The notes under the pieces were generated by a model that saw only the letters and a list, made by a program, of their open reading frames with translations, was not told the origin of the DNA and did no database searches. A program made the translations under genes and the position numbers. 64,000 nt of DNA from Sphingobacterium sp. ML3W. Lineage in GTDB: Bacteria > Bacteroidota > Bacteroidia > Sphingobacteriales > Sphingobacteriaceae. Location of the stretch: NCBI RefSeq assembly GCF_029542085.1, contig NZ_CP107036.1:248001-312000 (forward strand). Reading direction: 5' to 3'. This document shows, one piece after another, positions 25,287 to 55,547 of the stretch. Position 1 is the stretch's first letter; each line of letters begins with the position of its first letter.

Positions 25287-25311
25287 TTCTTTTACGGGAG
25301 TCGTTAAACGA

Positions 25312-25375
25312 AAAACACTTGAAGCGGGGAACTTCAAGTGTTTTAACTAACCAATTATTAACCTAAATTTATGAA
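25312..25375 (+). repeat. Structured RNA-like repeat, copy 1 (also terminates the hmgA operon)
   Basis: A 13-bp stem (AAAACACTTGAAG / CTTCAAGTGTTTT, 25312-25324 and 25332-25344) closes the loop CGGGGAA. A conserved single-stranded block containing ATTATTAACCTAAATT follows, then TATGAA. The ATG opens only a three-codon ORF. It is the first of three tandem copies; stems differ between copies but keep pairing. It also acts as a plausible terminator 25 bases after the dehydrogenase stop. Confidence 0.8.
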
Positions 25376-25603
25376 TGCTTAAAACAGTACAATACCTGTG
25401 CCAAAACTTATTTACCTAAGATGAATAAATTGTCATTTTTTTGTTAACTTATAATTTCGCTCTTATTTTGGATAAATCGCTGAAGTCGTTAATTCTAAAA
25501 AGCTAATGCTCGATTGAATCCATCCTGGGTGGTGGATGTGTTAAAGGATGCAGATATACCAAGGGTTATTACCGTTTTATTTTTATAAACTGTTGATAAA
25601 CAG

Positions 25604-25665
25604 AAACTCCTGAAGCGGGGAGCAACAGGAGTTTTCCTAACCAATTATTAACCTAAATTTATGAA
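25604..25665 (+). repeat. Structured RNA-like repeat, copy 2
   Basis: Stem AAACTCCTG / CAGGAGTTT (25604-25612 and 25626-25634), inner GC pairs and loop GGGGA, then the same conserved block and ATGAA. The ATG opens a seven-codon ORF. A candidate promoter lies upstream: TTTG at 25440-25443, 20 bases, TATTTTG at 25464-25470. Confidence 0.8.
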
Positions 25666-25804
25666 AAGTACAAGTATAACGTGATGAGAATATAAAATGT
25701 TTCAACTATATTCACTTTTTTAGATTTTTTAACATTTTTTAGTATTTCTATATTGATTTTCAGTAAAATATTCTAATATTTATATTCTTTTCGTATTAGA
25801 AAAT

Positions 25805-25872
25805 AAAAAACCTGTTAGCGGGGACTAACAGGTTTTTTATAAACTAACTAATTATTAACCTAAATTTATGAA
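25805..25872 (+). repeat. Structured RNA-like repeat, copy 3
   Basis: A 14-bp stem (AAAAAACCTGTTAG / CTAACAGGTTTTTT, 25805-25818 and 25825-25838) with loop CGGGGA. The conserved block and ATGAA follow, and the ATG opens an eight-codon ORF. Its stem sequence is different from copies 1 and 2 yet perfectly paired. Confidence 0.8.
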
Positions 25873-26075
25873 ACTAGTAAACAACTTTCAATAAGAATGC
25901 CAGGGCATAAACCAATCAGTCGGTTTAACGATTTTTAACGCTTTCTATGGCTAACACGTCGGTACTTCCTTGTACCGAGGCTTTAGTATTTTATTTTTCA
26001 AACCTTTTATCGCTTGTAAGCGTTTACTTATTCAGAGTAAGCAAATAATCATTAAAACTGTTTAATATAAAATAC
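25873..26075. other. Spacer after repeat copy 3 with several small palindromes
   Basis: No gene. Short inverted repeats are visible: CGGTAC/GTACCG (25960-25977), CGCTT-GT-AAGCG (26011-26022), and TTACT/AGTAA just after. They may be weak hairpins in the leader of the downstream operon. The promoter of that operon should be here, but I cannot name it. Confidence 0.4.
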
Positions 26076-49680: not shown

Positions 49681-52600
49681 ATGAAAATGCATTTCCCCAT
49701 TTCCGTTTTCACCAGCTTATTGCTAATGACAGGACAGCTTGTTTCGGGGCAAGAAAATACCATTTGGCAACTGGGCAGTTCCGATGGCTCCAACAGAGAA
49801 TTCGCCCTGGCTCCACATGATTACAAGAAATTTCTGGAACATGATTTTGGCTACGAAGACAATTACTTTGTAGTCGGGCAATCTTCGTTGTCAAGAGATT
49901 TGCCTTATGTGTTACCCGGACCTGCCAATGGATGGGGTGGGACTGGCGGAACCTCTGGCCTAAGAACCCATTTTTTGAATTTATACAGCGTATTAAGTGG
50001 TCAAGTTGAAAATGGGAAATGGGCTCTGGAAGTAAAATTAGCAAATAGTGATCCTCAAAATAAACCGACCTTACAAATCGCAATCAATGGTAGATCTTAT
50101 AATTACGAACTGAAGAATGGGGACGGATCCGTTGATCCTGTAGGTACAGGTTCAAAGTCTGGGGCTTCTACGATACGGATAACATTACCCGAACATGTTA
50201 TTGCAGAGGGGTTTAACCAGTTTACGCTTACTGTAATAAAGGGAGGGTGGGTTGAGTTTGACTCCTTTAAACTATTGGGTCCCCAACAGGTGAAATTGTT
50301 GAGAGATTACACTTCAATAATTAAAGGGGTACGGCAGTCGGATTTTGAATTGAAAAATGGAAACGAGCGCATACAGTATATGCTCGTTGATCTATTGAAA
50401 TTGAAAGATGATGAACGTATAAAAGTGTTGCTGGATGGAAGAAAAATCTATGATAAAACTCATGAGAAGGGCTTATCTCGACTTGAGATTCCAATGCCTT
50501 ATGCATCGAAAGAGGTACGGAGTAAATATGCAATATATATCAACGATAAACTAATTCAAACATCTTCTATAAAACGATCTCCAAAAAGATTGGGTGGGGT
50601 TTCGGATTATGTCAACACCATGATAGGGGCTGCGCATTCTAGATGGATGCTGGCACCGGGACCGTGGATGCCATTTGGAATGGTAAAGATTAGTCCCGAT
50701 AATCAGAATATTGGCTGGCAGGCTGGTTATGAACCTTCAATAGAATCTATTGGTACATTTAGCCATATACACGAATGGACAATGGCTGGACTGGGCACAT
50801 TTCCAACAGCAGGCCAATTGAAGACTAGTGTCGGAGACCAATATAGTACGCATTCAGGTTACCGTTCGGCAATAGATAAGGCAAGTGAACAGGCTCCATT
50901 GGGGTACTATTCCGTTCATCTTCTTGACCAGGATATTGACGCAAAGCTAACCGCAGGAACACGGTCCAGTTTCCAGAAATATACTTATCATAAATCAGAT
51001 ACTGGACGTATTATGATTGATCTTAAAGTGAACGGAGAATATGATTATAAGATCAAAGATCTCTCACTCAAAAAGGTCTCTGATTATAAGGTTATTGGCT
51101 ACAGTAACCAATTGTCCGAAAATGTCTGGTCTACCGATGCGAAACAAGATTATGTTGTCTATTTTGTCATGGAATTTGATAAGCCGATTATCAATTTCGG
51201 AACTTGGCATAATGGTCGCATAACAGATCAGTCTGATCTGGTTGCCGATAGTGCTCAATCCGCTGGTATGTATGTAGAATTCGATGTTCGTAAAAACAAG
51301 GAAGTGCAGCTGCGGACTGGGATTTCCTATGTCAGTATAGCCAATGCTGCAGAAAATTTGAAAACAGAACTTTCAGATCCATTTGGATGGTCTTTTGAAC
51401 GTGTGGTCGCCAACCAACATCGGGTGTGGAATGAATTATTGGGGCGCCTGGAGATAAAGAGTAATGACTATTTGGAAAAAGAGAAGTTTTATACAAATAT
51501 GTATCGTACCCTGGCCAGCCGTAATACTTTTAGCGACGTCAATGGGCAATGGCGGTCTTCTGATGAGACGATCAGAACGATGAAACATCCGGGGGACCTT
51601 GCCCTTGGCTGTGATGCATTTTGGAATACCTTCTGGAATTTAAATCAATTCTGGAATCTGGTTACACCGGAATGGTCGAATAAATGGGTGCGGTCGCAAT
51701 TGGCTATGTATGATGCCGACGGTTGGTTGGCAAAAGGTCCTGCTGGGATGGAATATATTCCAGTGATGGTTGCTGAACACGAGATTCCTTTGATTGTAGG
51801 GGCCTATCAGATGGGAATACGTGATTACGATGTCACAAAGGCATTTGAAGCGATCAAGAAAATGCAGACAACAAGTCCGCTGAAATTTGAAGGTGGCTTT
51901 GCCGGTAACCGGGATCTGGATGTTTATCTGAAGTATAAGTATGTGCCTTATGACCTTGGTCGTTTCTCAAATTCCCTGGAGTATAGTTTTGATGATTGGA
52001 CTGTAGGACAATTTGCAAAGTCCTTGGGAAAGGAAAAGGAATACAATTATTTTAATGATAGAGGTAGCTGGTGGAAGAATGCGATAGATGTTAAAAGTGG
52101 TTATGCGAGGATGAAAGATGCCAAGGGGGAATGGTACCGGGACTTTGATCCATTTAAATCTGGAGCCAATCATCATTATGTTGAAGGAAATGCATGGCAG
52201 TTGACATTCTTTGTACCTCAGGATATCCCAGCATTAGCTAAAATGATTGGTGAGGATGTGTTTCTAAAGCGTTTGGAATGGGGATTCGGAGAAAGTGAAA
52301 AATGGCGGTATAATGGACCAAATGATCAATACTGGGATTATCCGGTTGTTCAGGGAAATCAACAGTCTATGCATTTTGCTTATATTTTTAACTGGTTGAA
52401 CAAACCATGGCTTACACAAAAATGGAGCCGGTCTATCGGTGAACGCTATTACGGACAGGGTATTTCTAACGCTTACCTGGGTGATGAGGATCAAGGACAG
52501 ATGAGCGCTTGGTATATCATGAATGCAATAGGATTATTTCAGCTAGACGGAGGGACGCGAACAAAGCCAATTTATGAAATTGGTAGTCCATCTTTTGAAG

Positions 52601-52818
52601 AAATTAAAATTAAGTTGGGACGGCAATATGGTCGAGGAGATCAATTCACTATTAAAGCTAAAAATGCGAGCAAAAAGAATATGTATGTGCAGGGCGCAAC
52701 TTTAAACGGTAAACCTCTGCAGACATTCTATTTTGACGCTGCGGAATTGCTAAAAGGAGGTGAATTAGTTTTGGAAATGGGGGATAAGCCGAATATGCAA
52801 TGGGGCGTGTCGCATTAA
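49681..52818 (+). CDS. GH92 alpha-mannosidase with N-terminal rhamnogalacturonan lyase-like module
   Basis: 1045 residues with a signal peptide (ending LVSGQ). Residues about 27-200 (WQLGSSDGSNREFALAPHDY ... GWVEFDSFKLLG) resemble the accessory beta-sandwich of rhamnogalacturonate lyases. GH92 starts near 300: DYVNTMIGAAHSRWMLAPGP, PFGMVKISPDNQN, TFSHIHEWTMAG, the general-acid segment VEGNAWQLTFFVPQD and the base region GDEDQGQMSAWY (instead of the usual GNDDxGQMSAWY). GH92 enzymes are calcium-dependent exo-alpha-mannosidases on N-glycans or mannan. It is the first of three GH92 genes. Confidence 0.92.
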   Translation: MKMHFPISVFTSLLLMTGQLVSGQENTIWQLGSSDGSNREFALAPHDYKKFLEHDFGYEDNYFVVGQSSLSRDLPYVLPGPANGWGGTGGTSGLRTHFLNLYSVLSGQVENGKWALEVKLANSDPQNKPTLQIAINGRSYNYELKNGDGSVDPVGTGSKSGASTIRITLPEHVIAEGFNQFTLTVIKGGWVEFDSFKLLGPQQVKLLRDYTSIIKGVRQSDFELKNGNERIQYMLVDLLKLKDDERIKVLLDGRKIYDKTHEKGLSRLEIPMPYASKEVRSKYAIYINDKLIQTSSIKRSPKRLGGVSDYVNTMIGAAHSRWMLAPGPWMPFGMVKISPDNQNIGWQAGYEPSIESIGTFSHIHEWTMAGLGTFPTAGQLKTSVGDQYSTHSGYRSAIDKASEQAPLGYYSVHLLDQDIDAKLTAGTRSSFQKYTYHKSDTGRIMIDLKVNGEYDYKIKDLSLKKVSDYKVIGYSNQLSENVWSTDAKQDYVVYFVMEFDKPIINFGTWHNGRITDQSDLVADSAQSAGMYVEFDVRKNKEVQLRTGISYVSIANAAENLKTELSDPFGWSFERVVANQHRVWNELLGRLEIKSNDYLEKEKFYTNMYRTLASRNTFSDVNGQWRSSDETIRTMKHPGDLALGCDAFWNTFWNLNQFWNLVTPEWSNKWVRSQLAMYDADGWLAKGPAGMEYIPVMVAEHEIPLIVGAYQMGIRDYDVTKAFEAIKKMQTTSPLKFEGGFAGNRDLDVYLKYKYVPYDLGRFSNSLEYSFDDWTVGQFAKSLGKEKEYNYFNDRGSWWKNAIDVKSGYARMKDAKGEWYRDFDPFKSGANHHYVEGNAWQLTFFVPQDIPALAKMIGEDVFLKRLEWGFGESEKWRYNGPNDQYWDYPVVQGNQQSMHFAYIFNWLNKPWLTQKWSRSIGERYYGQGISNAYLGDEDQGQMSAWYIMNAIGLFQLDGGTRTKPIYEIGSPSFEEIKIKLGRQYGRGDQFTIKAKNASKKNMYVQGATLNGKPLQTFYFDAAELLKGGELVLEMGDKPNMQWGVSH

Positions 52819-52963
52819 TCATGTATCACTGAGATGGACTTTAATGGGATATGATATCTTCAGATTGCAGCTTTCCGCATCGAACAGTACTGTTTGTTAA
52901 AGTTTGGTTAAACATAGAAGGACAGAATAACAAAGCTCGGGGAATGGCGTTATCAATGTAGTT

Positions 52964-53030
52964 TTCATAATTTAGGTTAATAATTGGTTAGTTAGTAAAA
53001 ATCCTGAAGTTCCCCGCTTCAGGATTTTTT
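52964..53030 (-). repeat. Structured RNA-like repeat, copy 4 (minus strand)
   Basis: On the minus strand: stem AAAAATCCTGAAG / CTTCAGGATTTTT (plus-strand arms 52997-53009 and 53017-53029) with loop CGGGGAA, identical to copy 1. The conserved block with ATTATTAACCTAAATT follows, then ATGAA (one T fewer than the other copies). The ATG opens a 23-codon ORF (52968 to 52897), then nothing. It lies between two plus-strand GH92 genes, so it has no gene of its own. Confidence 0.8.
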
Positions 53031-53297
53031 GTTGAATGATCTTTCTTCTTGGATATAACAAGCATTAGCGGCTGTATTTTGATATTATTACCTTACTTTA
53101 AGATACCTAGGGGCCTGATGAATTTGCGTCTGTTTTTAGTCTTGCTAAATCCTATTAACATTGTAAAATGATAGATATAACTGCTGTCGATATTTGTAAA
53201 TCTTTGGTATTATCTGTAGTATTGTGACTACACTTAAAAATGTGCAATCTACTGCTCACTGTATCAGAAAAAAGTAGATTGTCTTTATCAAGATGAT
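53031..53297. other. Region upstream of the second GH92 gene
   Basis: AT-rich non-coding DNA. It should hold the promoter of the second GH92 gene. I cannot point to a consensus pair. Confidence 0.4.
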
Positions 53298-55547
53298 ATG
53301 ATCAAGTTTATCCGTTATTTTATTTTGGGATTATTTGTTTGGGAGCAAGCGTCTGCGCAAAAACTACCGACCGACTATGTCAATCCTTTTATTGGTACCA
53401 GTAACTATGGTACGACCAATCCCGGTGCTCAGGTACCCCATGGTTTAATGAATGTGTCTCCCTTTAATGTGATGGGGTCATCACTTAATGCCTTCGATAA
53501 GGATGCACGTTGGTGGTCTACACCTTACGAACATAGCAATAGCTATTTTACCGGTTTTTCACATGTCAATCTGAGTGGTGTGGGCTGTCCTGATATGGGA
53601 AGCTTGTTACTGATGCCAACCGCTGGGAAACTAGAAGTTGACTACCACCAATATGGAAGTACTTATACACAGGAAGAGGCTCATCCGGGTTATTATAGTA
53701 ATGTGTTAAAAAAATACGGTATCAAAACAGAGACATCCGCAACTGCTCGTGTGGGTGTATCTAAATTTACTTTCCCTAAAGGGCAGGCTAATATTCTACT
53801 CAATTTAGGCGAGGGGTTGACGAATGAAACTGGTGCCACAGTTCGTTATGTCAGTGATACGGAACTTGAAGGTTCGAAATTATTAGGTTCGTTCTGTTAT
53901 ACCAACAATCAGGCTGTATATCCGATTTTCTTCGTGATGCGAGTGAATAAAAAGCCCGCAAAGAAAGGTTATTGGAAATTTCAGCGTGCCGGTGAAAAAT
54001 GGGAGAATGATTGGAATAAAGATGCTGGCAAATACAAGATTTTTACCGATTATTCGAGCCAATTGTCTGGAGACGATCTTGGGGCATTCTTGAGTTTCGA
54101 CGTTCAGGAAAATGAGAGCTTAGAAGTACAGTTGGCGGTATCTTTCGTAAGCGTTGAAAATGCACGAAAAAATCTGGAGGCCGAGCAACCTAGTTTTGGA
54201 TTTGAGCGGATCAGAACGCAAGCTTCATCTTTGTGGAATAATGAATTATCAAGAATTCAGGTTGAAGGAGGTACCGAAGATCAAAAAACGGTATTTTATA
54301 CGGCTATGTATCATGCCATGATTCATCCAAATATTTTACAGGATGTTAACGGCGAATATCCGGCTATGGGAAATAGAAAGACCCTTGTCGCGGATCATAA
54401 TCGTTATACCGTATTCTCTTTATGGGATACGTACAGAAATGTACAGCCGCTCATGTCGTTGGTCTATCCAGATAAACAGATTGGAATGATTCGTTCCATG
54501 ATTGATATTTATAAAGAAAATGGATGGATGCCTAAGTGGGAGCTTTATAGCCGTGAAAGTTATACCATGGACGGTGATCCAGCAGTACCTGTGATCGTAG
54601 ATGCTTGGATGAAAGGCATTCGGGACTATGATATCAATACGGCTTATGAGGCTTTTTTGAAGTCGGCGACAACGACGGATTCTACGAATCGAATCCGTCC
54701 GGACAATGCCGATTATGTCAAGTACGGTTATGTTCCTCTTCGCGATTCTTTTGACAATTCAGTTTCCCATGCGATTGAGTACTATGTTGCTGATTGGAAT
54801 TTAGCGCAGTTGGCCAACTCGTTGGGAAAAACTAAAGATGCACAAACTTTTGGTAAGAGAGCACAAGGGTACAAGCATTATTATTCTCCAGAATATGGAA
54901 CATTTAGACCTATTCTTCCCAATGGATCGTTTTTGACACCTTTCAATCCATTGATGGGGGCTAATTTTGAACCTAACCATGGATTCCATGAAGGGAATGC
55001 CTGGAATTATAGTTTTGCGATACCATTTGATATCCCTGGTTTAGTTCAACTGATGGGCGGTAAGAAAAAATTTGTGGACAAATTGCAGGCCACCTTTGAT
55101 AAGGGTTATTTTGATGTTACCAACGAACCTGACATGCTTTATCCACATGTTTTTTCGGAAATAAAAGGTGAGGAATGGCGTACACAAAAATTGGTTAAGC
55201 AAATTCTGGATAAACATTTTACGAATAGTCCCGGTGGGATCCCAGGCAATGATGATACGGGAACAATGTCGACTTGGGCTTTAATGAATATGATGGGGAT
55301 TTATCCTTTTTGTCCCGGCAGACCAGATTATACGATCGTGACTCCGGTATTTGACAAGGTAACTATTCAACTTGATAAAAAGTATTATCCTAAGTCTGAT
55401 CGTGTGACCATTAGACGCCAAAAAGAGGGCAATGGAGAATTTATCAAAAAAATTATCGTCGATGGAAAGCCATTAGGAGGTTTTAAGATAAGCCATCAAG
55501 TTTTGGTCAATAGTAAAGATATACTGATTGTTACCGGAGACAGATAA
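53298..55547 (+). CDS. GH92 alpha-mannosidase
   Basis: 749 residues with a signal peptide (ending QASAQ). GH92 motifs: DYVNPFIGTSNYGTTNPGAQVPHG, FTGFSHVNLSGVGCPDMG, FSLWDTYRNVQP, the acid segment HEGNAWNYSFAIPFD and the base region GNDDTGTMSTWALMNMMGIYP. In most relatives the last is GNDDxGQMSAW, so the substrate site may differ. It is probably periplasmic or on the surface. Its 3' end is close to the third GH92 gene, and the two form an operon. Confidence 0.93.
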   Translation: MIKFIRYFILGLFVWEQASAQKLPTDYVNPFIGTSNYGTTNPGAQVPHGLMNVSPFNVMGSSLNAFDKDARWWSTPYEHSNSYFTGFSHVNLSGVGCPDMGSLLLMPTAGKLEVDYHQYGSTYTQEEAHPGYYSNVLKKYGIKTETSATARVGVSKFTFPKGQANILLNLGEGLTNETGATVRYVSDTELEGSKLLGSFCYTNNQAVYPIFFVMRVNKKPAKKGYWKFQRAGEKWENDWNKDAGKYKIFTDYSSQLSGDDLGAFLSFDVQENESLEVQLAVSFVSVENARKNLEAEQPSFGFERIRTQASSLWNNELSRIQVEGGTEDQKTVFYTAMYHAMIHPNILQDVNGEYPAMGNRKTLVADHNRYTVFSLWDTYRNVQPLMSLVYPDKQIGMIRSMIDIYKENGWMPKWELYSRESYTMDGDPAVPVIVDAWMKGIRDYDINTAYEAFLKSATTTDSTNRIRPDNADYVKYGYVPLRDSFDNSVSHAIEYYVADWNLAQLANSLGKTKDAQTFGKRAQGYKHYYSPEYGTFRPILPNGSFLTPFNPLMGANFEPNHGFHEGNAWNYSFAIPFDIPGLVQLMGGKKKFVDKLQATFDKGYFDVTNEPDMLYPHVFSEIKGEEWRTQKLVKQILDKHFTNSPGGIPGNDDTGTMSTWALMNMMGIYPFCPGRPDYTIVTPVFDKVTIQLDKKYYPKSDRVTIRRQKEGNGEFIKKIIVDGKPLGGFKISHQVLVNSKDILIVTGDR

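Follow-up and report, generated by a model that had tools for sequence, protein, structure and literature searches.

A multicopy family of candidate small RNAs in Sphingobacterium with complementarity to SusC start regions

Three tandem copies of a structured element occupy positions 25312-25872 of the window, a stretch of 64,000 nucleotides from Sphingobacterium sp. ML3W. They almost certainly belong to a multicopy small RNA (sRNA) family whose genes, in this array, lie on the minus strand. The most probable function, with a probability of about 0.7, is repression of SusC translation by pairing. Its members would be trans-acting sRNAs about 70 nt long, read from the minus strand in the case of the tandem copies. 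Their single-stranded 5' arm would pair across the ribosome-loading region and the start codon of mRNAs for SusC-type transporters. This pairing would block translation of SusC.

SusC transporters determine the polysaccharide diet of Bacteroidota. If the proposal is true, all 56 SusC genes of this genome would come under one global control layer, an RNA switch common to them with 5-46 paralogues and two kinds of promoter. Our literature search found no relevant paper uniting Sphingobacterium, sRNA and SusC.

Strand, structure and covariation of the elements

The initial annotation described three tandem structured copies, and our analysis confirmed them, with spacings of 290 and 207 bases. In a 34-nt block the copies keep 91-100% identity to the reference copy, and their hairpins differ. 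A fourth copy lies on the strand opposite to the tandem ones (Table 1). Against a model made from the copies of this genome, the four window copies reach E = 2e-13 to 1.4e-9, being themselves among the sequences that built it. Copy 4 stands between two genes for GH92 glycoside hydrolases, encoded on the same strand as the copy (window 49681-55547).

Table 1. Predicted sRNA genes and promoters in the window (R1, covariance model of the family).
Feature	Position	Strand	Details
sRNA copy 1	25310..25377	-	5' end near 25377 and 3' end near 25310, both predicted; arm 25347-25375; terminator hairpin 25312-25344
Basis for copy 1	25303-25381	-	R1 match of 78 bits; inverted repeat of 13 bp, 100% complementary
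Copy 1 promoter, sigma54-type	25390..25403	-	TGGCA-N6-TTG; first G of GGCA 33 nt upstream of arm
sRNA copy 2	25599..25667	-	arm from 25659; hairpin 25604-25635; R1 match 25594-25671; without strict promoter motif
sRNA copy 3	25798..25876	-	arm from 25866; hairpin about 25805-25838; R1 match 25797-25878
Copy 3 promoter, sigma54-type	25889..25902	-	TGGCA-N6-TTG
sRNA copy 4	52962..53032	+	arm from 52969; hairpin about 52998-53029; R1 match 52957-53038; without strict promoter motif

On the minus strand, each element of the array has the order arm, hairpin and U-tract. It is a predicted sRNA gene of about 70 nt, with an unpaired and nearly invariant 5' arm followed by an intrinsic terminator with a C-rich loop. 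The arm, about 28 nt long (UUCAUAAUUUAGGUUWAUAAUUGGUUAG), is mostly unpaired in folding. Among 230 distinct copies, the 8 nt past the hairpin contain 5.2 U, versus 0.27 on the other strand. The stems of these copies have 124 G-U positions and 17 A-C positions. Because the U-tract, the G-U pairs and the promoters described below all lie there, we assign the RNA to the minus strand.

The covarying stems claimed earlier are borne out by an alignment of 106 distinct rows drawn from many genomes. In this alignment, 98.8% of the stem cells pair, compared with a shuffled mean of 71.5%, and all nine modelled pairs show changes on both sides. Together with the E-values of the window copies, this is well outside what chance would produce.

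The same features had been taken for a plus-strand leader, attenuator or mini-ORF element. The loop GCGGGGA and the ORFs of 3, 7 and 8 codons after ATGs are both present on the plus strand, which resembles a SusC leader and has ATGAA after the block. What stands of that proposal is a structured RNA family under selection. What falls is the plus-strand leader opening at an ATG: the terminator U-tract, the G-U pairs and the promoters are on the other strand, and the ORFs, of 3-46 codons, differ in sequence. We reject this model, and the chance that it is right seems negligible. The supposed leader ending in ATGAA is the reverse complement, an antisense image, of an arm able to pair with SusC start regions. 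So, the link to SusC leaders that the initial annotation suspected is a real resemblance, but an inverted one. The tiny plus-strand ORFs are by-products.

Promoter classes, distribution and mobile copies

One arm base divides the copies into two classes, W=A and W=T; the window copies are W=A. In the W=A class, the motif GGCA-N6-TTG, the sigma54 -24/-12 signature, precedes 79 of 158 copies, mostly at -32/-33 from the arm. The reverse strand holds 0 such motifs, and shuffled sequence averages 0.7. In the W=T class, TAnnTTTG is at -17 in 54 of 75 copies, and the spacer carries a GTGTA...TACA dyad in 32 of 75 (0.6 in shuffles). All these counts come from copies that share descent, so they are not independent. 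The dyad, GTGTA-N-TACAC, is operator-like and lies between the -33 and -7 boxes, upstream of the arm (L056-L063, L086-L093). Both classes of promoter give the same start, 5-8 nt upstream of AATTTAGG.

The genome encodes one RpoN. Half of the W=A copies have a -24/-12 site at the proper distance, as expected of a sigma54-dependent sRNA in a genome with RpoN. They include copies 1 and 3 of the window; copies 2 and 4 belong to the other half, without a strict match. Sigma54 -24/-12 sites have been mapped in Flavobacterium psychrophilum (PMC9723704). The copies may respond to different signals, the sigma54 class to one kind and the TAnnTTTG class, with its operator-like spacer dyad, to another.

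The covariance model R1 was built from 22 copies. It finds 27 copies in this genome (E < 1e-3) and 5-46 per genome in each of 61 Sphingobacterium genomes. The initial annotation would have counted a lack of further copies in related genomes against its proposal. Across the family, 125 of 151 genomes give R1 matches, and 23 of the 25 genera are represented. In a sample of the phylum, 15 of 296 genomes match at E up to 0.01; seven of these are inside the family, and a single genome outside it (G211) gives a convincing match. Among named records, the exact arm is nearly confined to Sphingobacterium.

The genome (6.55 Mb) contains the 15-mer TTATTAACCTAAATT, with at most one mismatch, 25 times and the reversed control 2 times; nearly all of the 25 adjoin a hairpin. 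Once the elements are removed, AACCTAAATTATGAA shows no excess over the reversed control. A third variant, CATAAAATAGGTTAATATATGGCTAA, is present in L079-L082. One copy of this variant (L081 1501-1574, genome 3207745-3207818) is followed on the same strand by a SusC gene, at a distance of a few hundred bases.

Viruses also carry the element. The exact arm is present in 30 viral contigs (L420-L449), with a terminator-like hairpin after nearly all. Several of the viral copies examined are near terminase, portal or head protease genes. All of them are W=T, 0 have a sigma54 site, and 27 have CTTTTCAT upstream of the arm. Six lie closely behind a tRNA T-arm. The RNAs of viral and tRNA-linked copies probably come from longer transcripts, and the mobile and phage copies, without a promoter of their own, would probably be cut from these.

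Some cellular copies in genus g15 begin a few bases past tRNA-like 3' ends and resemble tRNA trailers (L152, L153, L154, L158, L161). ARAGORN called a tRNA in L161 only. In the genome under study, one copy (L020 1436-1515) is beside a phage-type integrase (283-1458), and its hairpin and upstream sequence are the same as in viral contigs L429, L431, L433 and L447. A search of named phages and plasmids gave one weak phage match without a terminator, and the rest were at chance. This match, in Tenacibaculum phage JQ (MT002873.2; L450 2001-2029), covers 29 nt of the arm at 93% and lies between an HNH gene and the terminase. No terminator follows it, and it is probably not a member.

The viral copies raise the question of why phages carry members of this RNA family. 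Speculatively, and with more doubt than confidence, phages might use promoterless copies of a host RNA to silence SusC-type outer-membrane proteins while they infect the cell or persist as lysogens; one benefit could be the exclusion of rival phages that use these proteins as receptors.

Many copies, some of them in phages or beside an integrase, could also suggest a dispersed repeat that bears a terminator, or a mobile element, in either case one that regulates nothing by itself. The copies are frequently downstream of genes, and some follow tRNAs, as such a repeat could be. This explanation is improbable. The two promoter classes keep a fixed distance, the stems change in a compensatory way, and the unpaired arm is invariant. 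Moreover, other species have retained the tandem array at this locus, between the genes for glutamate dehydrogenase and N-formylglutamate amidohydrolase: L170 and L196 each carry three copies, and L256 carries two.

SusC leaders as predicted targets

The arm is complementary to the start regions of SusC genes. We computed duplex energies between the arm and leaders from -60 to +20. The mean is -12.9 kcal/mol for SusC leaders and -8.9 for 237 other leaders (p = 1e-15), with control genes drawn from 20 stretches of 20 kb and the window. With 100 shuffled arms, SusC leaders give -9.3 (sd 0.69), and 0 of 100 are as low as the real arm. When the SusC leaders themselves are shuffled, the value is -9.35 (sd 0.25); for AT-matched controls it is -8.95. 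The complementarity is strongest in windows between -45 and +30 relative to the ATG and is gone inside the gene. The signal at the start region was repeated in two more genomes, G004 and G134, of which one is a second Sphingobacterium genome and the other belongs to a second genus.

The usual pairing joins an upstream TAACCAA or TAAACC with AUGA at the start. TAACCAA is 38-fold enriched in SusC leaders. No SusC gene preceded by the full block was found in the genome; in this check, the matches to the 15-mer fall in the elements, bar a few chance ones.

If the RNAs are expressed and these duplexes form in the cell, the effect on SusC would most likely be repression. The pairing evidence by itself is silent on the sign, and the RNA might instead activate or stabilise the SusC messages. 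We regard this as very unlikely, since the start codon and the loading region both lie within the predicted duplex, and the precedent of FopS is repression (PMC11697453).

The arm and the C-rich loop are far more constant than simple pairing would require. This might suggest that the RNA is made but works mainly as a sponge: either the loop or the invariant arm would bind a protein or a second RNA, and the SusC match would be secondary. This is an unlikely alternative, as only the real arm sequence, and only at the gene start, gives the SusC match. The C-rich loop itself matches SusC leaders more weakly than it matches control genes.

SusC leaders of genomes without R1 matches also match the arm (G094, z -4.7; G220, z -4.2; G115, z -2.4, weak). 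The leader motif is therefore wider than the RNA family, and co-evolution of the two is not demonstrated. An AACC-type motif, complementary to the arm, is present in SusC leaders of a genus and of a Flavobacteriaceae genome without detected copies (L390-L419). A counterpart RNA family was not found in 1.2 Mb of G094.

Comparison with known small RNAs

Rfam models at the gathering cut-off find nothing in the window but a tRNA. The Qrr sRNAs of Vibrio are a small paralogue family of about five copies driven by sigma54. They depend on Hfq, have four stem-loops and act on quorum-sensing targets. The likeness to Qrr lies in the paralogous family and the use of sigma54. LhrC1-7 of Listeria is multicopy as well, with C-rich single-stranded parts that pair with Shine-Dalgarno sites and with surface proteins among its targets. 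To our knowledge, Shine-Dalgarno sites are absent from the mRNAs of Bacteroidota. The Rfam score for LhrC is at chance level (16 of 110 bits). Both Qrr and LhrC1-7 are named in the FopS study (PMC11697453).

GibS of Bacteroides has a long unpaired 5' seed that pairs over start codons (PMC7366714). The arm described here is similar in being long, AU-rich and unpaired, and it is predicted to pair over start codons. Unlike this family, GibS comes from one gene only, is 145 nt long, and has two seeds, extra hairpins and other targets (PMC7366714). We rejected Rfp18 of Flavobacterium (PMC9723704): its layout differs, it pairs via the third stem-loop, and its targets are proteases.

The closest known system is FopS, a paralogous sRNA family of Bacteroides that represses SusC translation and is antagonised by RbpB (PMC11697453; Rfam RF04319). 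When single copies were scanned, FopS gave the top bit score among 4227 Rfam families. The scores of three copies (21.0, 21.0 and 18.0 bits) are far below the gathering cut-off of 56. Group 1 arms give better alignments to the FopS consensus than shuffles do (p 0.007 to 0.03), and group 2 arms do not. We also tried the FopS consensus arm against the SusC leaders of this genome, and it was not specific.

The Hfq family (PF17209) has no match in this genome. An RbpB-type partner was sought with RRM_1 (PF00076), which has no match in this genome either; the Bacteroides control was positive. This raises the question of how such RNAs act without a recognisable Hfq or RRM protein in the genome.

The authors of the FopS study considered that different sigma factors might drive the paralogues, with no strong sign of sub-diversification in Bacteroides (PMC11697453). 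The two promoter classes described here would be a clear sequence case of this idea. FopS has a primary-sigma promoter (sigma ABfr-type). Here, TAnnTTTG is found in the W=T class only, and the W=A class is sigma54-like. A sigma54 class is, as far as reported, absent in FopS, and the C-rich loop is also a difference of the Sphingobacterium RNA. FopS and the Sphingobacterium RNA share an unpaired conserved 5' stretch followed by a Rho-independent terminator. Both have many paralogues per genome (27 here, 5-46 across the genus) and a seed complementary to SusC start regions. By analogy, the Sphingobacterium RNA probably works like FopS, but we do not file it as FopS.
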